DNA of 64,000 bases from Peptococcaceae bacterium BICA1-7 (GTDB taxonomy: Bacteria; Bacillota; Desulfotomaculia; Desulfotomaculales; Desulfocucumaceae): contig JUEB01000033.1 in NCBI GenBank assembly GCA_000802095.1, positions 372,001-436,000 on the forward strand, in the 5' to 3' direction. The notes beneath the pieces were generated by a model that worked only from the letters and a program-made list of their open reading frames with translations, was not told the DNA's origin and did no database searches. A program made the position numbers and the translations under genes. Of the stretch, positions 7,295 to 42,106 are shown one piece after another (position 1 is the first letter of the stretch; the number at the start of each line of letters is the position of its first letter).

Positions 7295-7729
7295 TTGATA
7301 ATTCGCGAAATGGTTGCGGATGATATCCCTGAATTAGCATTGTTATATAAGCAATTTTGGAATGAAGATTCTTATGTTGAGAAAATGTATATTAAGTTTA
7401 ATAAGTTTTGTAAAACAGGCACACATGTAATGATGAGTGCTATAGAAAAAGATCGGTTAATTGGTTCCGTAATGGGGGTTATCTGTAGTGACCTTTATGG
7501 CAGCTGCGAGCCATTTATGGTTCTGGAAAATATGATAATTGATAAAAATTACAGGAACAAAGGGGTTGGCAAAGCATTAATTTTTGAGTTGGAAAAAATT
7601 GCTGCTCAAAAAAAATGTACACAAATAATTCTTGTAACAGAAAACAATAGGATTGATGCCTGTAAATTTTATGAATCTGCAGGATATAACCCTGACACGC
7701 ATAAGGGATTCAAAAAGAAACTGAAATAG
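7295..7729 (+). CDS. GNAT-family N-acetyltransferase
   Basis: The product has 144 residues from TTG 7295, chosen because GGAGG at 7283-7287 is ideally spaced; a TTG at 7274 lies before that site. The acetyl-CoA-binding motif A is clear (NYRNKGVGKAL, about residues 90-100), preceded by the beta-4 strand MVLENMIIDK and followed by the FYESAGY motif of GNATs. The substrate is unknown. The gene is more AT-rich than the thioesterase gene next door and lies between two copies of the 45-bp hairpin element inside a split duplication, suggesting it was inserted there. Confidence 0.85.
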   Translation: MIIREMVADDIPELALLYKQFWNEDSYVEKMYIKFNKFCKTGTHVMMSAIEKDRLIGSVMGVICSDLYGSCEPFMVLENMIIDKNYRNKGVGKALIFELEKIAAQKKCTQIILVTENNRIDACKFYESAGYNPDTHKGFKKKLK

Positions 7730-31857: not shown

Positions 31858-33216
31858 CTAGTCCTGAATGATTGCGGGGGGCAGCAGCCCGGCCTCTTTA
31901 AACTTTTTAAGCTTACGCCACAGTGTGGTTTTATCTATGCCCAGATCCCTGGCAGCGGACGCTTTATTCCAGTTGTTGCGCTCCAGGGCGTCATAAATCA
32001 TCCTTGTTTCCATTTCCACCAGTGTGCAGCTGTTTACTAATAAATGACCGGTTTTTTTGTTGTCCTGCAGGTAGGCAGGCAGGTGCCGGGTCATTATGGG
32101 ACCTTTTTTGCAGAGCACAAAGGCGTGCTCAATAATGTTTTCCAACTCCCTCACATTTCCTGGAAAATGATGCCTCATCAGTGTTTCCAGGGCTTCCTCC
32201 GAAACACCCTCAACCTCTCTCTCCCTCAGTGTATTAAACCTTTCTATAAAGCTGTCCACCAGGAGAGGAATATCCTCCTTGCGGCTGTTCAGGGGGGGAA
32301 GGGAGAGCTTGACTACATTTACACGGTAGTACAGGTCATTTCTGAAAAGACCCTCCCCTACAAGCTGGGTCAGGTTCTTGTTGGTGGCCGCCAGCACTCT
32401 CACATTACACCTGACCGGAGATGTGGCTCCCAGGGGCTCGTACTCCTTCTCCTGCAGCACCCGCAGCAGCTTGACCTGCAGCGCCGGGGAAATGTCTCCT
32501 ATTTCGTCAAGCAGTATGGTGCCTCCCTCAGCCCGGGCAAAGCGTCCCTGCTTGCTCCTGCGGGCATCGGTGAAAGCCCCTGCCTCATAGCCGAAAAGCT
32601 CTGATTCCAGGAGTGTATCCGGAAGGGCCGCGCAGTTTATGGCCACCAGGGCGTTGTTCCGCCGTCTGCTCAGGTTGTGAATGGCCCTGGCCAGGAGCTC
32701 CTTGCCTGATCCGGTGGGGCCTTCAATAAGCACGGTGCTGTCACTTTCAGCAACATCCGGGAGTATTTGGAATATATTCTGCATTTGATGGTTTTTACTT
32801 ATTATATCGGAAAAGGTGTACCGGCCCTTCAGCTCTCTCTTTAGCTCCTCCACCAGGCTCAGGTCGCGGAAGGTTTCCACTCCTCCGATTACCTGCCGGC
32901 TGCTGTTTTTTAAGATACCGGTGCATATACTTATGGGCACCTTTTTCCCGGAGGAGTTTATTACTGTGACAGCCTTATTAATCACCGGGGTTCCCGATTC
33001 CATGGTCTGCCGCAGCGCGCAGTTGCTCTCACAGATATTGGCCCGGAAGACCTCCCAGCAGTAACGGCCCACAGCTCTGGACCGGGGAATGCCGATAACC
33101 TGCTCCGCTGCATTGTTGAAGGAAGTGATGCGCCACTCCCGGTCCACTGTGAAGACACCCTCGGTTATGCTGTTGAGAATAATTTCATTCATCTCTGACA
33201 GCTCACTCTTGCTCAT
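31858..33216 (-). CDS. PAS-AAA+-Fis sigma-54-dependent activator
   Basis: The product has 452 residues from ATG 33216 with GGAGGGG upstream. A PAS domain (about 10-120, ITEGVFTVDREWRITSFNNA) contains Cys residues in FRANICESNCALRQ that could bind a metal or redox cofactor. The AAA+ domain has Walker A GPTGSGKE, a sigma-54 contact loop reading GAFTDA instead of the common GAFTGA, and Walker B GGTILLDEIGD. The C-terminal Fis HTH is NKASAARDLGIDKTTLWRKL. It lies 340 bp beyond the end of acsB, whose operon has a sigma-54 promoter, so it is the prime candidate activator of cooS-acsB. Confidence 0.93.
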   Translation of the reverse strand: MSKSELSEMNEIILNSITEGVFTVDREWRITSFNNAAEQVIGIPRSRAVGRYCWEVFRANICESNCALRQTMESGTPVINKAVTVINSSGKKVPISICTGILKNSSRQVIGGVETFRDLSLVEELKRELKGRYTFSDIISKNHQMQNIFQILPDVAESDSTVLIEGPTGSGKELLARAIHNLSRRRNNALVAINCAALPDTLLESELFGYEAGAFTDARRSKQGRFARAEGGTILLDEIGDISPALQVKLLRVLQEKEYEPLGATSPVRCNVRVLAATNKNLTQLVGEGLFRNDLYYRVNVVKLSLPPLNSRKEDIPLLVDSFIERFNTLREREVEGVSEEALETLMRHHFPGNVRELENIIEHAFVLCKKGPIMTRHLPAYLQDNKKTGHLLVNSCTLVEMETRMIYDALERNNWNKASAARDLGIDKTTLWRKLKKFKEAGLLPPAIIQD

Positions 33217-33344: not shown

Positions 33345-33553
33345 CAATAGGGGACATTCCTCCGATCCTCGGAGCCATTACACATCGCTCATATCCAAAA
33401 CAGGATCATTCCCGGTAAACCCACCCCGATCGGGGACATTCCTGTCCCCAAAGGAATACCTCATCTTCAGCAGGTGAGTCCCCATTCTCCCAATCGGGGA
33501 CATTCCTGTCCTCAAAGGAATACTTAATCTTCAGCAGGCGTGTCCCCATTCCA
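33345..33553. repeat. GGGGACA/TGTCCCC repeat cluster downstream of acsB
   Basis: Two tandem units of about 63 bases lie at 33428-33490 and 33491-33553. Each begins near ATCGGGGACATTCCTGTCC and contains AAAGGAATAC and ATCTTCAGCAGG before GTCCCCATTC. A partial unit begins at 33347. Each unit has GGGGAC at one end and GTCCCC at the other, so each can fold into a hairpin. Related units lie at 35768-35915. Confidence 0.75.
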
Positions 33554-35752
33554 CTAAAGCAGCGGGTCCATGGTCAGCGCCGGGTGCCCCTTCTCTTCCA
33601 GGAAGCTCATAATCTCATCCCCGGAGGTGCCGATGGACTCATCGGCAATCTTATCCACGAAGTCCCTGCCAAGGCCTGCATTTTCGGCAGCCTCTTCCAG
33701 CAGGGAGCGAAGCTCGTCTTTAAGTGCCCTGGGAAGCCATACCAGGCGGCCCAGCCCTCCGTCGGCAGGCACGAATTTGCGGGAGCCCAGGTAGGACTTG
33801 CCGCAGCCCATGAATCCGGGCATCTGCGCGCCGGCGCCAATGGTTCCGGCCAGGGTGGAGAAGGTCATGCCGGACGGGGTCATGCCCCCGTGCTCACGGT
33901 TGACCACCATAAAGCCGTTGCACTCGGGCACCATGGCCAGTATGCACTCAAAGCAGCCGCAGGAGGTCATGGGGTACTCCATAATGGTGTAGAAGTTGAC
34001 GTTGGTAATGTTCCTCTGGGAGTTATTGAAGCAGAACTGGTTAAAGGACTCCCACTGGCCCTTGAAATCATCCAGAACACCCTCCTTGGGTATGGGCTGG
34101 TTAGCCCCATGGGGATTGATCTCATAGGCCGCCTTGGCATCCAGCCAGCTTACCGCTCCGCAAAGGCCCACCCTCTCGGGGGCAACCACGCAGACATGGG
34201 TGGGGGCGAAGGACTGGCACAGGGTGCAGGAGTAGAAGGTGTCCACTTTCTCGTCCTGCAGCTCCTTTAAGCGGTCGTCTCTCTTATGGTAGTAGCTGCG
34301 GGCTACATCCCTCATTTCCAGAACCTTTTGCTCGTCGGTGTACAATGTGATCTGAACCCGGTCCACAATGGCCGAGAACTCAGTCTTGAACTTGGCATAA
34401 AGAATCTTGCCTATATCCTTCATGCGGAAGCCCTTGCCGTAGGCATCCTTGGAGATACGGACCCAGTTGATGTCCCTTTGGGCCACGTGCCACAAACCCT
34501 CGCCGTAGTTGGTGAAGTAGTGAATGCGGCGCTCCAGCACAGGCTCAAAGTCTTCCTGCATTTTACGGCCGTAAACATCCACCACTATGCCAATGGGCAG
34601 CCTGCTGCCTGGCTCCAGGCCATCGATGTCAGGCCCCACCAGCTCAACCCGGCCGTCTTCGATCTCATCCTCTCCCACCATACGCACCAGCTCAAAGCCG
34701 GGGGTCTTTTGGCCGCCGAATTCTACGAACATGTCCTTCTTGCGGATGGACTCACCCTCGAAGGCCGGGCCCACGGTGATGGGCACATCGATGTCAATGG
34801 CGGTGATCTTGATGCCCCGGACCTCTAAGCAGGTCTGCACCAGCTTGTCGTAGTCGGGCTGGGATACATACCAGTCCTTTATTTGCTGGTCTTCGGGAAC
34901 CTCCTGATCGGTAATTACCGGGAAGCCAACATTAATGGCTCCCATGCAGGCCGCTGTTTTAACCATGTCATGCTCGCCCAGGTATAGTATGAAGGCCAGC
35001 ACCCGGCGCTGCTGGTAGTCCCGCTGGGCGTCGTAGTCGCCGGGCTTGATGCCTCCGAACATCATGCCGGCCCGCAGGGCGAAGTTGGCCGCGTGCACCA
35101 CCTGGGTGAAATTGCCCAGGGGGAAGGCTATGTAGTCAACTCCAAGCTTTACGTTCTCTTCCAGCAGCTGCTCGATGATCTCATCGCACAAAAAGAGCAT
35201 CAGGCCCTTGGCCATGAAGCTGTCCACCAGCTTCTTGGCGGCCTTGCCGTCTTTGGCCCGGCCCACTATAACGGCCTCGCCGGGAATGGTCCAGTCCACC
35301 AGCTTGGTGCCGTACATACGGACTACGGGGTCTCCCAGGAATCCGGTCCAGGGAGGTGTGTGCAGCGGTTTTTCAGGGGTATTTCTTATATAGCGCACCG
35401 CCTCAATGATGTCTGCGGCGTACCAGGTGGCCTCGCCCCACTTTCTGGCGTTGGCAAAGGTCCTTTGTTCTTTGACCTGGGCGCGTAATTTATTCAGCAC
35501 CGGGACGCAGTCTCCCAGGGTCCTTATTTCCTCTCCACTTAGACAGCGAATTACCGGTAAAAAATAGGCAGTGTCCGGATAGCCCACCGGGTGATCGCTG
35601 CCGTACCGGCGAATGGCCATGTTTAGCAGTATCTCAGCATAGCTCAAGGCGGTAATAGCGCCCTCATAGGCTTCTTTAAACAGTTTTTTTGGTTCCTTGC
35701 CGGGCTCTACTGTTCCTTCAAATATTTGATCAAAATTAACGGCTTCGGCCAT
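33554..35752 (-). CDS. acsB: acetyl-CoA synthase, CODH/ACS alpha subunit
   Basis: The product has 732 residues from ATG 35752, with AAAGGAGG seven bases upstream. The A-cluster ligands are Cys509, Cys512, Cys521 and Cys531 (CTLCQSFAPTHVC...GLC) plus Cys598 and Cys600 in SCGCFEC, the same spacing as the Moorella enzyme shifted by three. AcsB joins a methyl group from the corrinoid protein, CO from CO dehydrogenase and CoA to make acetyl-CoA in the Wood-Ljungdahl pathway, or runs in reverse. It follows cooS with a 165-bp gap holding a repeat. The corrinoid protein and methyltransferase genes (acsC, acsD, acsE) are not in the window. Confidence 0.97.
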   Translation of the reverse strand: MAEAVNFDQIFEGTVEPGKEPKKLFKEAYEGAITALSYAEILLNMAIRRYGSDHPVGYPDTAYFLPVIRCLSGEEIRTLGDCVPVLNKLRAQVKEQRTFANARKWGEATWYAADIIEAVRYIRNTPEKPLHTPPWTGFLGDPVVRMYGTKLVDWTIPGEAVIVGRAKDGKAAKKLVDSFMAKGLMLFLCDEIIEQLLEENVKLGVDYIAFPLGNFTQVVHAANFALRAGMMFGGIKPGDYDAQRDYQQRRVLAFILYLGEHDMVKTAACMGAINVGFPVITDQEVPEDQQIKDWYVSQPDYDKLVQTCLEVRGIKITAIDIDVPITVGPAFEGESIRKKDMFVEFGGQKTPGFELVRMVGEDEIEDGRVELVGPDIDGLEPGSRLPIGIVVDVYGRKMQEDFEPVLERRIHYFTNYGEGLWHVAQRDINWVRISKDAYGKGFRMKDIGKILYAKFKTEFSAIVDRVQITLYTDEQKVLEMRDVARSYYHKRDDRLKELQDEKVDTFYSCTLCQSFAPTHVCVVAPERVGLCGAVSWLDAKAAYEINPHGANQPIPKEGVLDDFKGQWESFNQFCFNNSQRNITNVNFYTIMEYPMTSCGCFECILAMVPECNGFMVVNREHGGMTPSGMTFSTLAGTIGAGAQMPGFMGCGKSYLGSRKFVPADGGLGRLVWLPRALKDELRSLLEEAAENAGLGRDFVDKIADESIGTSGDEIMSFLEEKGHPALTMDPLL

Positions 35753-35767
35753 TTTTGCATCCTCCTT

Positions 35768-35917
35768 TGTTAATTGGGGACATACTTCCAACCCCAAAAC
35801 ATAGGAATTGGAAATTGGGAATTAGGAATTGGGGGGAGGACAAAAGCCATCCCGATCGGGGACATTCCTCCGGCCCCCAAAGCGATTCATATCAGGGAGG
35901 TGTGTCCCCATTCCTTA
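35768..35917. repeat. GGGGACA repeats between cooS and acsB
   Basis: AATTGGGGACATACTTCC at 35773 and ATCGGGGACATTCCTCCG at 35851, with GTGTCCCCATTCC at 35901-35913, belong to the family after acsB. The direct word ATTGGAAATTGG / ATTAGGAATTGG lies between them. The intervening DNA separates two co-oriented genes that must work together, so the hairpins may tune relative expression. Confidence 0.6.
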
Positions 35918-37939
35918 TTACCAGTTACGGCACAGCGCGGTTTCCAGGTCATCGGCCACCTGTCTGTGCACTTTCAGCTTCCAGGTGCGGTATTCCAGGG
36001 CACTTATTAATTTTTCAATGGATACCTGGATATCCGGCTCGAGGATGAAGTATCCGCCGAAAACATCACCGGCTATCTGGGTGAGTATGCTGTAGATAAG
36101 ATCCGAGCCTTCCACAGGCGGCATTGTGCCCACCTGGGTAGGCATGCCTATGGTGAGAGCCCAGGTGCCGATGCTGGTGGCCTTGCCGCTCATTGCCTCT
36201 GGGGCTGACGCCACGAAGGGCACCTTGGGGGTGTCCACGCCGAGGTCTTCGGCCATGGCCATCAAAAGCTCGGCCGCCCTGGAGTTGTCTACACAGGAGC
36301 CCACGTGCAGCACCGGGGGAAGGCCGTATTTAAGGTTGGCATTTTTGGATATGCGGCTGTAAAAGCTCTTCAGCCCGGGGCCGCAGTACTGATCCACCGT
36401 GTCCGGGTCCATCAGCCCTGCCTTGGCGCAGGCCTGGGCATGGCAGCCGGTGGAGATCATAAATACATCGTTTTTCAAAAGTGCCTTGGCAATCTCAAGG
36501 TGGGCCTGATCCTGGAAGGTTTTCAGGTTGTTGCACCCGGCCATCAGGACCACACCCTTTATTTCACCGGACAGTATGGCGTCGTTCAGCACTCTTACCG
36601 GGTTGTCCGGGTTCACGGACTTAAATAGATCAAAAATTGCCTCCAGGCTCCAGCCGGCAACCACCTTGTTTTTAACATTTGGTATATGGACGGGCCTGGT
36701 TCCCCTTTCCCTGAAGGCATCTATAGCCTGGCGGATTACATCTTTGGCGCACTCCATGGCCTTGCCCTCCTGGTAGTCCATGTGGGCGGCGCCGGGTTGC
36801 TTTACTATGTCCGAGGTGGTGATAAGCCTGGTGCCGTAGCACTGGGCAATGGTGTTGAGGCTGGGCATTATGCACTGCACGTCCACCACCATGGCATCAA
36901 CCGACCCGGTGCAGATGGCCAGTTCCTGGGAGGCGAAGGAGGTCACAATAGGAACTCCCTGGCGCATCAGCACCTCGTTCCCGGTACAGCATATCCCTGA
37001 GAGCTGAATGCCCTCTGCTCCGGCCGCCCTGGCCTCTCCCTCAAGGTCACGGGCCGCTGCCACAATCATTTCACTGAGTAAGGGGTTGTGGCCGTGCACT
37101 ATTATATTAACTTTTTTAGGCTGGAGCACTCCCATGTTGGCCTCGCTCAGAACAGGCTGCGGGGTGCCGAAAATAATGTCGGACAGGTCGGTGGCTATCC
37201 ACTTCCCGGCCAGGTCGGCCAGACCTACCCGGACAGCGCTGAATACCAGGTTCACGGGGTCATTGTCCATGCCCACATGGGCCTGGGTGACCAGATCGGA
37301 AATGGTGGCGTGGATGCCGTGGGGCATGACCATGTGGCTGCGGTATACCTCATTGCGGTCTGCGGTAACCATTTTGGAAATCCAGGTGGCCTCTCCCTCG
37401 CCCTTAAGCCTCTTAAAGTCCTCAATGGCAAGTTCCGCAAGCTCCCTGGCCAGGGTAAGTGTTTCTTTTCCCTCGGTTGTGATGCCTACCTTTTTACATA
37501 TGCGCGCCAGCTTCTCAGGGTCCTTTATGGAGTAGTCCGGCGCATGCCCATCGGCAATCATGTGCAGCACGTGGGCTATGTGGTTTCCGTGCTGGGCGTG
37601 GGAGGCGCAGCCGGTAAGTATCATCAGGCCCACGCTCCTGGCCACAATGGTCCACTCATTGGCGCCGCAGATTCCACGGCTGGCAGGGCCTTCGTCGGAC
37701 TTAATCCTGCAGGGGCCCATCATGCAGAAGCGGCAGCAGATTCCCTTATAGCCGAACTGACACTGGGGCTGCTGGGCCAGCACACGGTCAAAGGCAGTAA
37801 TAATGTTGTTTTCCCTTGCATTTTCAATCATTTCCAGTACGGCCGGGTCAACAGACCTATTTATGCTTTTGGGGTCAATTACCCGTGGCGTCTTATTGCT
37901 TGGCCGGTGGGTAAGGCTTGTGTCCCTGAATCTTGGCAT
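35918..37939 (-). CDS. cooS: nickel carbon monoxide dehydrogenase catalytic subunit
   Basis: The product has 673 residues from ATG 37939 with AAGGAGG nine bases upstream. N-terminal cysteines in CQFGYKGICCRFCMMGPCRI bind the D and B clusters; later Cys residues in GICCTGNE, MAGCNNLK, STGCHAQACAKAG and HVGSCVDNSR supply the C-cluster (Ni-4Fe-5S) region, together with the expected His residues in ASHAQHGNHIAH. It reduces CO2 to CO for acetyl-CoA synthase or oxidises CO, with electrons to ferredoxin. It is the first gene of the leftward operon with acsB and has a long regulated leader. Confidence 0.97.
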   Translation of the reverse strand: MPRFRDTSLTHRPSNKTPRVIDPKSINRSVDPAVLEMIENARENNIITAFDRVLAQQPQCQFGYKGICCRFCMMGPCRIKSDEGPASRGICGANEWTIVARSVGLMILTGCASHAQHGNHIAHVLHMIADGHAPDYSIKDPEKLARICKKVGITTEGKETLTLARELAELAIEDFKRLKGEGEATWISKMVTADRNEVYRSHMVMPHGIHATISDLVTQAHVGMDNDPVNLVFSAVRVGLADLAGKWIATDLSDIIFGTPQPVLSEANMGVLQPKKVNIIVHGHNPLLSEMIVAAARDLEGEARAAGAEGIQLSGICCTGNEVLMRQGVPIVTSFASQELAICTGSVDAMVVDVQCIMPSLNTIAQCYGTRLITTSDIVKQPGAAHMDYQEGKAMECAKDVIRQAIDAFRERGTRPVHIPNVKNKVVAGWSLEAIFDLFKSVNPDNPVRVLNDAILSGEIKGVVLMAGCNNLKTFQDQAHLEIAKALLKNDVFMISTGCHAQACAKAGLMDPDTVDQYCGPGLKSFYSRISKNANLKYGLPPVLHVGSCVDNSRAAELLMAMAEDLGVDTPKVPFVASAPEAMSGKATSIGTWALTIGMPTQVGTMPPVEGSDLIYSILTQIAGDVFGGYFILEPDIQVSIEKLISALEYRTWKLKVHRQVADDLETALCRNW

Positions 37940-38087
37940 TGCATTTTCCTCCTTCATGAAATGACAATTACGATACCGGGCAGAGTTTTTGCATTGATCT
38001 TTTGGTGACGGCTATAATTTTTTAGTTGTAGAAAGAAAAATAAAGTTTGACCACCTCCCCCCGGTAGCATCTTATTAGAGTACTTCG

Positions 38088-38120
38088 CAAAAAAGATGCG
38101 CCGGAATGGACATCCGGCGC
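38088..38120 (-). terminator. terminator-like hairpin in the cooS leader
   Basis: Read leftward, GCGCCGGA TGTCCAT TCCGGCGC is followed by ATCTTTTTTGCG. It is a GC-rich 8-bp stem with a U-run, about 40 bases after the predicted sigma-54 start and 150 bases before cooS. It should stop some transcripts unless prevented, i.e. act as an attenuator; the alternative is that it ends an unseen short transcript. Confidence 0.65.
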
Positions 38121-38169
38121 TAAAAATAAGGAGTAACAACAAGGTCTAGCCATCCCACCGGCTAAAGAC

Positions 38170-38184
38170 GCAAATGTGGTGCCA
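38170..38184 (-). promoter_or_regulatory. sigma-54 (-24/-12) promoter of cooS-acsB
   Basis: On the minus strand TGGCACCACATTTGC matches the sigma-54 consensus TGGCAC-N5-TTGC, with GG and GC ten bases apart. It points toward cooS, 230 bases before its ATG. A sigma-54 activator gene lies at the far end of the operon. Confidence 0.8.
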
Positions 38185-38238
38185 GTACACTTTTCACCGC
38201 CATATAAGCTTTTTGAATAATTGGGTGAGTGCGAAAGA

Positions 38239-38338
38239 TTGCGTTATGCAATGGCTATGTTTTCAAAAAGATATTGCTTTTTGCATATAAACCCCTGTAT
38301 TTGCTGGTGAAACAGAAGATTAATTGCATAATGCAATT
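38239..38338. promoter_or_regulatory. three TTGCATAATGCAA-like dyads, candidate activator sites
   Basis: AATTGCATAATGCAATT (38322-38338) is a perfect 8+1+8 dyad. TTGCGTTATGCAA (38239-38251) is the same site with one mismatch. ATATTGCTTTTTGCATAT (38271-38288) is a looser third copy. Relative to the predicted sigma-54 start they lie about 85, 120 and 170 bases upstream, the usual place for enhancer sites. They also lie upstream of the divergent promoter at 38470. Confidence 0.65.
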
Positions 38339-38469
38339 TAATAATAAAATGATTTCAAGCTGCAATTCCCAGTTAAGCAGCTGGCGGGCATATATTTAAA
38401 AATTTATCAGTCAATTTTTTTTATAAGTTAAGAATAAGTAAGTTTAATGGATAATAACACCTCTTATTA

Positions 38470-38498
38470 TTGACATATGACCATTATAAAAATATAAT
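38470..38498 (+). promoter_or_regulatory. consensus sigma-70 promoter of the NifX/MinD/Mrp/Hdr cluster
   Basis: TTGACA at 38470-38475 and TATAAT at 38493-38498 are separated by exactly 17 bases. The first start codon is 40 bases downstream. A perfect promoter suggests high or constitutive expression. Confidence 0.88.
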
Positions 38499-38537
38499 TA
38501 TTATGAAATTATGTCCATAAGTTCGGGGGGTTGCTTT

Positions 38538-38900
38538 ATGAAAACGGTGGTCACCGCACAGGGGCAGTACCTTGACAGCCTGGTGGATCTCCGGTTTGGA
38601 AGGTGCAGCTGGTTTATTGTGGCCGATACAAAAACCGGCCGGTTTAAGGCGGTAAGCAATGAAAAAAATTATGAGTCCTCCCAGGGAGCGGGTATACAGG
38701 CTGCCAATAATGTTACCCGCCTGGGGGCTCAGTCTGTTATCACCGGGCACTGCGGGCCCAAGGCCTTTCGGGTGCTGCAGGCCGCAGGCATAAAGGTGTA
38801 TTCCGGCGGCGGGGGAACAGTGGCGGAAATGCTGGACAGGTTTAAAAAGGGAGATCTGAAAGAGACGGAGACTGCTGATGTGGAAGGCCATTGGGCATAG
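38538..38900 (+). CDS. NifX/NifB-type dinitrogenase cofactor-domain protein
   Basis: The product has 120 residues from ATG 38538. Residues 1-100 follow the NifX/NafY-like fold (VDLRFGRCSWFIVADTKTG, SSQGAGIQAANNV, AQSVITGHCGPKAFRVLQAA, YSGGGGTVAEML). Such proteins carry iron-sulfur or iron-molybdenum precursors; outside nitrogen fixation they occur with MinD-type ATPases in anaerobes. It is the first gene of a rightward cluster divergent from cooS, consistent with metallocluster handling for CODH/ACS or Hdr proteins. That link is inferred. Confidence 0.85.
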   Translation: MKTVVTAQGQYLDSLVDLRFGRCSWFIVADTKTGRFKAVSNEKNYESSQGAGIQAANNVTRLGAQSVITGHCGPKAFRVLQAAGIKVYSGGGGTVAEMLDRFKKGDLKETETADVEGHWA

Positions 38901-39140: not shown

Positions 39141-39461
39141 ATGCCGGGTTTTAACGGAAATGGCCCGCTAAGCAGGGGTCCATTTACAGGAAAAGGGCAG
39201 GGTTATTGTATTGCTGAGGTAGGAAAGGGTACTTCCCGGGGATTTGGCTGTGGACGGGGGGCCGGCCGTGGCCGGAAAAACTGCCGTAATACAGCAGAAA
39301 AGCCATTTCGTGGCGGTTCAGCCCAGGCCTTCACACCGGGAGCTAAAACCACCGGGGGCGGCAGGCAGGAGCTAGATTTGCTCAGAGAGCGGGTTAAGTG
39401 CCTTGAGGCAGCTCTGGAGCTGGTCACAAAAGAAAGAGACCAGGGCCAGGTAAAAGATTAA
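39141..39461 (+). CDS. DUF5320-type MPG protein with coiled-coil tail
   Basis: The product has 106 residues. It begins MPGFNGNGPLSRGPFTGKGQ, the typical DUF5320 signature (MPGxxGxGPxxxGPxTGxGxG), includes Cys-containing GYCIAEV and GFGCGRGAGRGRKNC, and ends in a predicted coiled coil (LDLLRERVKCLEAALELVTK). Its function is unknown; the family is consistently linked with NifX and P-loop ATPase genes in anaerobes, as here. Confidence 0.8.
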   Translation: MPGFNGNGPLSRGPFTGKGQGYCIAEVGKGTSRGFGCGRGAGRGRKNCRNTAEKPFRGGSAQAFTPGAKTTGGGRQELDLLRERVKCLEAALELVTKERDQGQVKD

Positions 39462-39484: not shown

Positions 39485-40342
39485 ATGTTGGACATTACTG
39501 TGGCTATTGCCAGCGGCAAGGGGGGAACGGGAAAAACCACCGTTTCCTCCAATCTTGCCCTGGCGGCCTCCCGGGCCGGCTGTGAGGTCTATTATGTTGA
39601 CTGTGATGTGGAAGAGCCCAACGGGCACCTTTTTTTAAAGCCCCGTATCACCGGCGCCCGGCATATTCATGTGCCGGTGCCGGCTGTTGATGAGGAAAAG
39701 TGCACCCACTGCGGCCTGTGCTCGGAAATATGCCAGTACAGTGCAATTGTCTGCCTTGAAAAAACCATTTTAACCTTTGATAAGATGTGCCACGGGTGCG
39801 GCGGGTGCGCTTATGTGTGTCCCGCGGGGGCCATCAGTGAACGGGGCAGAGACATAGGAGTCCTGGAGGAGGGACACTCCGGCCCTATTGGCTTTGTTCA
39901 CGGGAGGCTGACCATCGGTGAGGCCATGAGCCCTCCGCTGATAAAGGCGGTGCTGGCGGCAGGGAAAAAGGATGTATTGAGAATAATTGACTCCCCGCCG
40001 GGCACCTCCTGCCCGGTGATTACTTCTATTAAAAGCGCCGATTACGTCATTCTGGTTACCGAGCCAACCCCCTTTGGGATTAATGACCTGGGGCTGGCCA
40101 TAGATATGGTCAGGGAGCTGGGTATTCCCTTCTCTGTAGTGGTAAACCGGTCGGAAGCCGGTAATCATCTGGCCGGCGACTACTGCAGGGAAAGGGGAGT
40201 GGGAATACTGGCGGAGATTCCGGATGATCGAAGGGTTGCCGAGGCCTACTCAGTAGGTGAACTGGTATTTGATACCCTGCCGGATTTTCGGGGCTATTTT
40301 ACCGATTTATTAATTTCCCTCGGGAAAGAGGCTAAAAGATGA
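39485..40342 (+). CDS. MinD/ParA-type ATPase with inserted 2[4Fe-4S] ferredoxin domain
   Basis: The product has 285 residues. A deviant Walker A, SGKGGTGKTT, lies at about 10-19. A ferredoxin insert at 63-115 carries CTHCGLCSEICQ and CHGCGGCAYVCP. A switch II/Walker B region IIDSPPGTSCPV follows. The enzyme is cytoplasmic. Such ferredoxin-MinD proteins occur in pairs and are thought to act in cluster assembly or redox-linked metal insertion. It overlaps the next paralogue by four bases (ATGA), so the pair is made together. Confidence 0.9.
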   Translation: MLDITVAIASGKGGTGKTTVSSNLALAASRAGCEVYYVDCDVEEPNGHLFLKPRITGARHIHVPVPAVDEEKCTHCGLCSEICQYSAIVCLEKTILTFDKMCHGCGGCAYVCPAGAISERGRDIGVLEEGHSGPIGFVHGRLTIGEAMSPPLIKAVLAAGKKDVLRIIDSPPGTSCPVITSIKSADYVILVTEPTPFGINDLGLAIDMVRELGIPFSVVVNRSEAGNHLAGDYCRERGVGILAEIPDDRRVAEAYSVGELVFDTLPDFRGYFTDLLISLGKEAKR

Positions 40343-41241
40343 AGGAAATAGTTGTTATCAGTGGTAAGGGGGGGGCCGGAAAGACAAGCCTGGCGGCCTC
40401 ACTGGCCGCCCTGGCCGGCAGGGCGGTGGCGGCGGACTGTGATGTGGACGCAGCCGATCTGCATCTGGTGATGAGCCCCCGTACAATAAGGGCAGAAAAC
40501 TTTTTCGGGGGTAAGAAAGCCTCGGTCAATCCGGCCAGGTGCAGCGGCTGCGGCAGGTGTAAGGATCTCTGCCGGTTTGAGGCTATTACCAGGGATGAGG
40601 AAGGCTCTGTCTATGAGGTTGATGCCCTTAGCTGTGAGGGGTGCGGGGTTTGCAGCTATTTTTGTCCGGAAAAAGCAATTGACTTTAAGCTGGTGGTGAA
40701 CGGCCAGTGGTTTGTTTCCGATACTCCCTACGGGCCTATGGTACATGCCAGGCTGGGCGTGGCGGAAGAGAACTCGGGCAAGCTGGTGGCCCTGGTGAGA
40801 AAGCAGGCCAGGATAATTGCCGAAAGGGAGGGGATTCCCTTTATAATTGTGGATGGCCCTCCCGGCCTCGGGTGTCCTGTGATAGCCTCAATAACAGGAG
40901 CTGACGCGGTATTGATTGTTACCGAGCCCACTGTTTCAGGAGAGCACGACATGGAGAGGGTGTCCCGGCTGGCCGCTTACTTCAATATACCTGCATACCT
41001 TTGTGTCAATAAGTATGACATTAATCCCGGGCTGAGCAAAAAGATATCTGACAGGGCCAGGGCTGACGGCCTTAAGGTGCTGGGAGGGATTCATTACGAC
41101 AGGTCTGTTACCGAAGCCCAGATAAAAAAGCAGCCGGTGGCGGCCTTAAATGGCTCTACTGCTTCGGAAGATATGCGGAAGATCTGGATTAATCTGGTGG
41201 ACCAAATAAAGAAGGAAAAAAGAGAGGAGGGAAGAGTGTAG
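40339..41241 (+). CDS. second MinD/ParA-type ATPase with ferredoxin domain
   Basis: The product has 300 residues, a paralogue of the upstream gene. Walker A is SGKGGAGKTS; the ferredoxin insert has CSGCGRCKDLCR and CEGCGVCSYFCP; the later motif is IVDGPPGLGCPVI. The ATGA overlap with the upstream gene indicates a heterodimer or strict co-expression. It probably works with the NifX-like and Mrp proteins in delivering iron-sulfur or nickel clusters. It could be mistaken for CooC, but CooC lacks the ferredoxin insert. Confidence 0.9.
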   Translation: MKEIVVISGKGGAGKTSLAASLAALAGRAVAADCDVDAADLHLVMSPRTIRAENFFGGKKASVNPARCSGCGRCKDLCRFEAITRDEEGSVYEVDALSCEGCGVCSYFCPEKAIDFKLVVNGQWFVSDTPYGPMVHARLGVAEENSGKLVALVRKQARIIAEREGIPFIIVDGPPGLGCPVIASITGADAVLIVTEPTVSGEHDMERVSRLAAYFNIPAYLCVNKYDINPGLSKKISDRARADGLKVLGGIHYDRSVTEAQIKKQPVAALNGSTASEDMRKIWINLVDQIKKEKREEGRV

Positions 41242-41272: not shown

Positions 41273-42106
41273 ATGAATCATGGCTCAGGGGGGTCTTCCT
41301 GTGAGGATAAAAAAAGCGGGGGAGGCTGTGACAGCTCCCAGTGCGGCATAGAGAGGCTGAAGGAGAATGACAACAGCCGCATAAGGAATGTAATTGCGGT
41401 GATGAGCGGCAAGGGAGGTGTGGGCAAGTCGTCAGTGACCTCGCTTTTGGCCTGTGAGCTGAGTAAAAAAGGGTACAGGGTGGGGGTGCTGGATGCCGAT
41501 ATAACAGGACCCAGCGTGCCCAAGATGTTTGGTGTCAGAGGTATGGCCGACAGTAACGGACTGGCCATATTTCCGCATGTTTCCGCCATCGGTATAAAAA
41601 TAATGTCACTAAATCTTTTGATGCCCAATGAAGATGACCCGGTTATATGGCGTGGGCCTATAATAGCCGGTGCGGTTAAACAATTCTGGACCGATGTGGC
41701 CTGGGGGGATCTAGACTATCTTGTGGTGGACCTGCCGCCGGGCACCGGGGATGTTCCCCTGACGGTGATGCAGTCCCTGCCTCTCAATGGGGTTATAGTG
41801 GTGACATCTCCCCAGGACCTGGCCAGTCTTATAGTGACAAAAGCAATTAAAATGACCGTGCAGATGAGCGTTCCCATAATAGGCCTGGTTGAAAACATGA
41901 GCGGTGCTGTCTGCCCGCACTGCGGAAAAGAGATAGAGCTGTTCGGGCCGGGCAGGGGCAGGGAGATGGCTAAAGCCTTTGATATTCCTTTTATCGGCAG
42001 TATACCTTTAGATCCTGTATTATCGAGACTTTGTGATGAGGGAGACATCGAAAAATATCAGAGCAGCCTTTTTATGAACATAGACCCCATGGCGCTGCCC
42101 CAGTAG
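41273..42106 (+). CDS. Mrp/NBP35-type iron-sulfur carrier ATPase
   Basis: The product has 277 residues. An N-terminal Gly/Ser/Cys stretch (GGSSCEDKKSGGGCDSSQCG) precedes Walker A SGKGGVGKSS. The central LNLLMPNEDDPVIWRGPII and DLPPGTGDVPLTVMQSLP are Mrp signatures, and CPHCGKEIELFG supplies the CxxC that binds a transferable 4Fe-4S cluster at the dimer interface. It is likely the terminal carrier in this maturation cluster. ATG 41273 has GGAGG upstream. Confidence 0.92.
   Translation: MNHGSGGSSCEDKKSGGGCDSSQCGIERLKENDNSRIRNVIAVMSGKGGVGKSSVTSLLACELSKKGYRVGVLDADITGPSVPKMFGVRGMADSNGLAIFPHVSAIGIKIMSLNLLMPNEDDPVIWRGPIIAGAVKQFWTDVAWGDLDYLVVDLPPGTGDVPLTVMQSLPLNGVIVVTSPQDLASLIVTKAIKMTVQMSVPIIGLVENMSGAVCPHCGKEIELFGPGRGREMAKAFDIPFIGSIPLDPVLSRLCDEGDIEKYQSSLFMNIDPMALPQ

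Follow-up and report, generated by a model that had tools for sequence, protein, structure and literature searches.

Genes at the cooS-acsB locus

The window, i.e., the whole 64-kb stretch of DNA that was analysed, carries on its minus strand the genes cooS (35918-37939) and acsB (33554-35797), encoding the CODH catalytic subunit and acetyl-CoA synthase. The start of cooS was set at 37939, behind an AAGGAGG, and that of acsB follows the ORF list, with an ATG at 35752 as a probable start. This CODH/ACS is a second, clade-II copy, and the main operon lies elsewhere. The other CooS of the genome, at G000:C26, is 64% identical to that of the window and groups with the main-operon type; the window's CooS falls in a clade apart from it.

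The plus-strand genes divergent from cooS form an ORP (Fe-S carrier) cluster. They encode a NifX/ORP-domain protein resembling Orp8 (38538-38900), a DUF5320 protein (39141-39461) of a family that recurs beside the regulator in relatives, two MinD-type ATPases resembling Orp3/Orp4 (39485-40342 and 40339-41241), each with two 4Fe-4S motifs, and an Mrp/NBP35 Fe-S carrier (41273-42106), for which the nearest curated family is MrpORP at 337 bits, below the cut-off of 450. NifX, two ferredoxin-MinD ATPases and Mrp, placed divergently from cooS, make up the ORP-complex neighbourhood that goes with OrpR, the name reportedly given later to the Desulfovibrio vulgaris activator DVU2106. The divergent operon is served by a perfect sigma-70 promoter, TTGACA-17-TATAAT (38470-38498, plus strand), which is identical in the sister species G002.

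Just past acsB, where an activator gene of PAS-AAA+-Fis type had been proposed, the minus strand indeed encodes a one-component protein with a PAS domain, a sigma-54 AAA+ domain and a Fis HTH (31858-33216), which is the OrpR architecture. Its AAA+ domain contains GAFTDA, a variant regarded as functional (PMC4641369). The PAS and AAA+ domains were modelled fairly confidently, and the top matches in a fold search were known EBPs. This activator class has 37 matches in the G000 genome. The PAS cysteines C53, C62 and C66 (452-aa numbering) occur in all 17 orthologues and in none of 20 paralogues, and the C-x8-C-x3-C pattern occurs in all 26 members of a wider set of homologues, which drew on genomes labelled Desulfobacterota and on further families of the phylum and formed one clade (support 0.998). 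The Desulfobacterota homologues, 52-59% identical, served as stand-ins for DVU2106 in this comparison. The activator is classed as an OrpR-type enhancer-binding protein on the strength of its ORP-type neighbours, its cysteines and its likeness to the described DVU2106 system.

Sigma-54 element and enhancer dyads

The sigma-54 promoter predicted to point toward cooS was borne out at 38184-38170 (minus strand; TGGCACCACATTTGC). The element is an exact TGGCAC-N5-TTGC with correctly spaced GG and GC doublets, and the 22 bp spanning it are unchanged in G002. Exact sites are rare, with nine in the whole genome (G000, 4,745,667 bases) versus four for the reversed pattern used as a control. The genome encodes rpoN (sigma-54), and several of the other exact sites lie 44-95 bp ahead of plausible EBP-regulated genes, a spacing that refers to sites outside long frames with an ORF downstream. 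Transcription from the element is predicted to start at about 38158 (minus strand), giving cooS a leader of about 220 nt.

Upstream of this element, two palindromes stand out as genuine candidate enhancer sites, to which no strand is assigned, namely, dyad 1 (GATTGCGTTATGCAATG, 38237-38253, with the core TTGCGTTATGCAA at 38239-38251) and dyad 2 (AATTGCATAATGCAATT, 38322-38338, with the core TTGCATAATGCAA at 38324-38336). A matrix trained on 25 sites, all from other genera, was used to score all 17-mers of the 64 kb, and dyads 2 and 1 were the best and second-best of the window, with scores of 19.9 and 14.8, respectively. The pattern used to search for training sites was inspired by the window's motif; the matrix ranking was free of the window's own sequence. 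Dyad 2 is identical in G002, and dyad 1 is kept there as GATTGCGTTTTGCAATA with its half-sites intact. When up to one mismatch is allowed, the genome has four occurrences of TTGCATWATGCAA, two of which are dyads 1 and 2, and dyad 2 is the sole place of TTGCATNNTGCAA in the 4.75 Mb. Across the genomes compared, TTGCATNNTGCAA is rare, with 0-3 copies per strand and genome (six in G029), and most of these genomes have one copy at the regulator. Measured from the -24 T, the dyad centres lie 61 and 146 bp upstream, which puts them some 87 and 172 bp from the predicted start, close to the 85-170 bases originally estimated.

The original prediction counted three dyads, of which these two remain. The middle one (TATTGCTTTTTGCATAT, 38272-38288, no strand; TTGCTTTTTGCAT at 38274) was rejected, as it scores 1.7, which is background, and is lost in G002. 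A separate weak third site, GATTTCAAGCTGCAATT (38351-38367, no strand), lies 29 bp from dyad 2 with a score of 8.5, and its counterpart in G002, GGTTACATATTGCAATC, scores higher (15.75).

Regulator loci in related genomes

The regulator was found in 15 of the 113 genomes of the order that were surveyed, the window's own included, with 17 genes in all, and 14 further stretches around regulator genes were read. The 16 other genes, from 14 other genomes, encode proteins 61-88% identical to that of the window, with 88% for G002. At most of these loci, a -24/-12 element is preceded, at a distance of 60-200 bp, by a palindrome TTGCA-N3-TGCAA or GTGCA-N3-TGCAC, which often forms a tandem pair with a spacing of 31-34 bp. 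Palindromic candidate sites upstream of a sigma-54 promoter are a further trait of OrpR systems. The second palindrome doubles as a terminator stem in some relatives, so that symmetry alone is no proof for that palindrome; the first does not.

In at least five loci (L160, L161, L162, L164, and L170), small genes that include ORP-like and DUF5320 ones stand between the sigma-54 element and cooS-acsB, toward which the element points, and in L158 acsB immediately precedes the regulator gene, as it does in the window. The promoter is present at every regulator-linked cooS-acsB locus that was read, and only L170 lacks clear dyads, those at L170 being degenerate. A loss of promoter and dyads next to a retained regulator and cooS-acsB, which would have told against the original prediction, was thus not observed. 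The proposed arrangement thus recurs in other genera, and the comparison of sequences strongly supports a promoter, enhancer dyads and a cognate linked activator for cooS-acsB. Dyads also lie directly upstream of the regulator gene itself in L158 and L198-L200. No dyad was seen in the window's gap between acsB and the regulator gene; this spacer holds near-duplicate segments (like CCTGCTGAAGATTAAGTATTCCTTTGAGGACAGGAATGTCCCCGAT) at 33390-33550 on the minus strand.

An exclusive pairing of the regulator with cooS was considered and rejected. Four genomes (G113, G114, G117, and G118) have clade-II cooS but no close homologue of the regulator, so the link is not universal, and the regulator occurs without cooS nearby in L165-L169 and L171. 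At L165, L167, L169, L171 and further loci, ORP/NifX, MinD-type, Mrp or Hdr-like genes are found, again without cooS. Most Desulfobacterota homologues that were read have NifX/MinD/Mrp genes as neighbours, the same types as in the window, and none of the Desulfobacterota loci examined showed TTGCA-N3-TGCAA at the regulator.

Several further arrangements were observed. Two Desulfoscipio geothermicus MAGs have sigma-54 elements upstream of clade-II cooS-acsB (TGGCACAAATATTGC and TGGCACGAGTATTGC, at L009:5913 and its L011 equivalent), and in L009 the element is immediately ahead of a cooC-like ATPase gene, followed by cooS and acsB; no close homologue of the window's regulator was found in these MAGs. 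In L169 (G071), a dyad and a sigma-54-like element separate two OrpR-type genes arranged in tandem. In L198 (G263; 7358-7557 as oriented), dyads are flanked by two oppositely directed sigma-54 elements, one of which leads to NifX and two MinD ATPase genes. In G002, cooS-acsB is split across contig ends, and positions 1-127 of G002:C153 (L189) fuse cooS codons ~480-521 to the promoter region, either through a deletion or an assembly break.

A putative OrpR-type circuit for a second CODH/ACS

From sequence and conservation, i.e., the promoter, the two dyads, the regulator family and its linkage, the cysteines and the terminator described below, we infer how binding, activation, the PAS cluster and its signal, and control of read-through may fit together. 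The region 37940-38540 would be a divergent control region of the ORP (orange-protein) type. The OrpR-like one-component activator would bind TTGCA-N3-TGCAA at dyads 1 and 2, and perhaps at 38351-38367, loop over 60-150 bp, and drive sigma-54 RNA polymerase at 38184-38170. Transcription would run leftward into the clade-II cooS-acsB, and the ORP/Fe-S-carrier operon would run rightward off its perfect sigma-70 promoter. Taken as a whole, an OrpR-type divergent control region that drives the second CODH/ACS is the account that we consider probable.

The leader complicates this picture. An intrinsic terminator (38120-38098, minus strand), consisting of an 8-bp stem followed by ATCTTTTTTG, lies between the sigma-54 promoter and cooS, about 40 nt after the predicted start; its hairpin and U-tract are conserved in G002. 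Read-through must therefore be conditional or partial, and in the proposed mechanism cooS expression would depend on it, whether regulated or by a fraction of transcripts that escape. The same terminator, together with a leader of ~220 nt versus 44-95 bp at the other exact sigma-54 sites preceding ORFs, gives some weight to a different explanation, namely that the promoter yields a short terminated RNA (~60 nt) or mainly serves ORP control, and that cooS-acsB is transcribed mostly otherwise. However, a promoter scan found no good sigma-70 promoter between the terminator and cooS, the ORP operon already owns its perfect sigma-70 promoter, and five relatives have the same dyads and sigma-54 element ahead of an operon that ends in cooS-acsB, where no comparable terminator was seen after the promoter, all of which makes this explanation rather unlikely. 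In a search for riboswitches or known RNAs in the cooS leader, no Rfam family reached its threshold, the best chance match being suhB at 19 of 41 bits. A leader segment, CCUUGUUGUUACUCCUUAUUUU (38123-38146, minus strand), is conserved in G002, and the ACUCCUU within it could pair with the cooS Shine-Dalgarno AAGGAG as a possible anti-SD or attenuation element.

The PAS cysteines had been thought able to sense redox state, metal or CO. They are present and invariant, and this C-x8-C-x3-C pattern favours an OrpR-type Fe-S redox sensor over CO sensing. The cysteines probably hold an Fe-S cluster, so that the activator would report the redox/Fe-S state rather than CO itself. The same circuit might instead respond to CO, nickel or another ligand, in keeping with a target that is a CO-handling nickel enzyme; PAS domains have many ligands, and cysteines can also bind metal or haem. 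Yet the cysteines are just as invariant in homologues that sit beside ORP genes without cooS, and the PAS domain of D. vulgaris OrpR reportedly carries a redox-sensitive 4Fe-4S cluster. A signal such as CO, nickel or another ligand is considered about as improbable as the short-RNA or ORP-control explanation above. Far less plausible still is that the promoter and dyads are functionless chance matches: loose sigma-54 and dyad patterns are no more frequent in the 64-kb window than in shuffles, so that the case depends on co-location and conservation, but the exact forms are rare genome-wide, co-located, retained in G002, and picked out again by the matrix from other genera.

One part of the original prediction, a self-contained sigma-54 circuit for the carbonyl branch of the Wood-Ljungdahl pathway, was not supported. 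The CODH/ACS here is the second copy, the promoter and cooS are set apart by a conserved terminator, and the regulator's relatives are mostly found beside ORP/NifX/MinD/Mrp Fe-S-carrier genes, in several cases with no cooS. The OrpR-type control region preferred here finds its closest parallel in D. vulgaris Hildenborough, where the orp operons are divergent, sigma-54-dependent and controlled by the EBP DVU2106 via palindromic sites at -131 and -88, and where the DVU2106 gene has its own, autorepressed sigma-70 promoter (PMC3897727). Shared traits are a sigma-54 activator, palindromes ~90-130 bp ahead of the start, divergent operons, and a neighbourhood of ORP-complex genes of the types Orp3/Orp4 (bearing ferredoxin motifs), Orp8 and MrpORP (PMC3897727, PMC6345978). 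The window differs from D. vulgaris in that a CODH/ACS copy forms one arm, a sigma-70 promoter heads the ORP arm, the palindrome reads TTGCA-N3-TGCAA, and a terminator lies in the cooS leader.

Dedicated regulation of a CO dehydrogenase is also known from cooS controlled by CooA, a haem protein of the CRP family, in the same bacterial group. The linked regulator here is a sigma-54 activator instead; neither a CRP-type (CooA) nor a haem-PAS/LytTR (RcoM) regulator was found linked to cooS, and the genes read next to the locus included no recognisable CooA. In Desulfofundulus salinus, a cooS accompanied by cooA exists separately, and acsAB is duplicated (PMC11206085). The 39 EBP regulons reconstructed in Clostridiales likewise rely mostly on one-component EBPs of PAS type whose sites lie ahead of sigma-54 promoters, whereas Table 1 of that study names CODH/ACS or ORP genes as target for none of the 39 groups (PMC6615313). 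A literature search covering titles, abstracts and targeted passages turned up no report of sigma-54 control of CODH/ACS.

CODH/ACS is a highly oxygen-sensitive enzyme of the Wood-Ljungdahl pathway, and, to our knowledge, little is understood about how it is switched in anaerobes outside CooA. Here, control of a central carbon enzyme seems to have passed to a probable redox switch of a known kind (OrpR/ORP), whose attachment to CODH/ACS is absent from the titles, abstracts and targeted passages searched. It is conceivable, if speculative, that one OrpR-type Fe-S redox activator coordinates the timing of the ORP genes with that of a dedicated second CODH/ACS, and that the leader terminator adds a further conditional gate for cooS. 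From this locus, a particular regulator, binding site and promoter can be predicted for CODH/ACS, and related sulfate reducers, some of them probably culturable Desulfofundulus species, share the arrangement, which makes the question directly testable. It would also connect CODH/ACS, with its large demand for Fe-S clusters and nickel, to the ORP Fe-S carriers, whose function is still unsettled.
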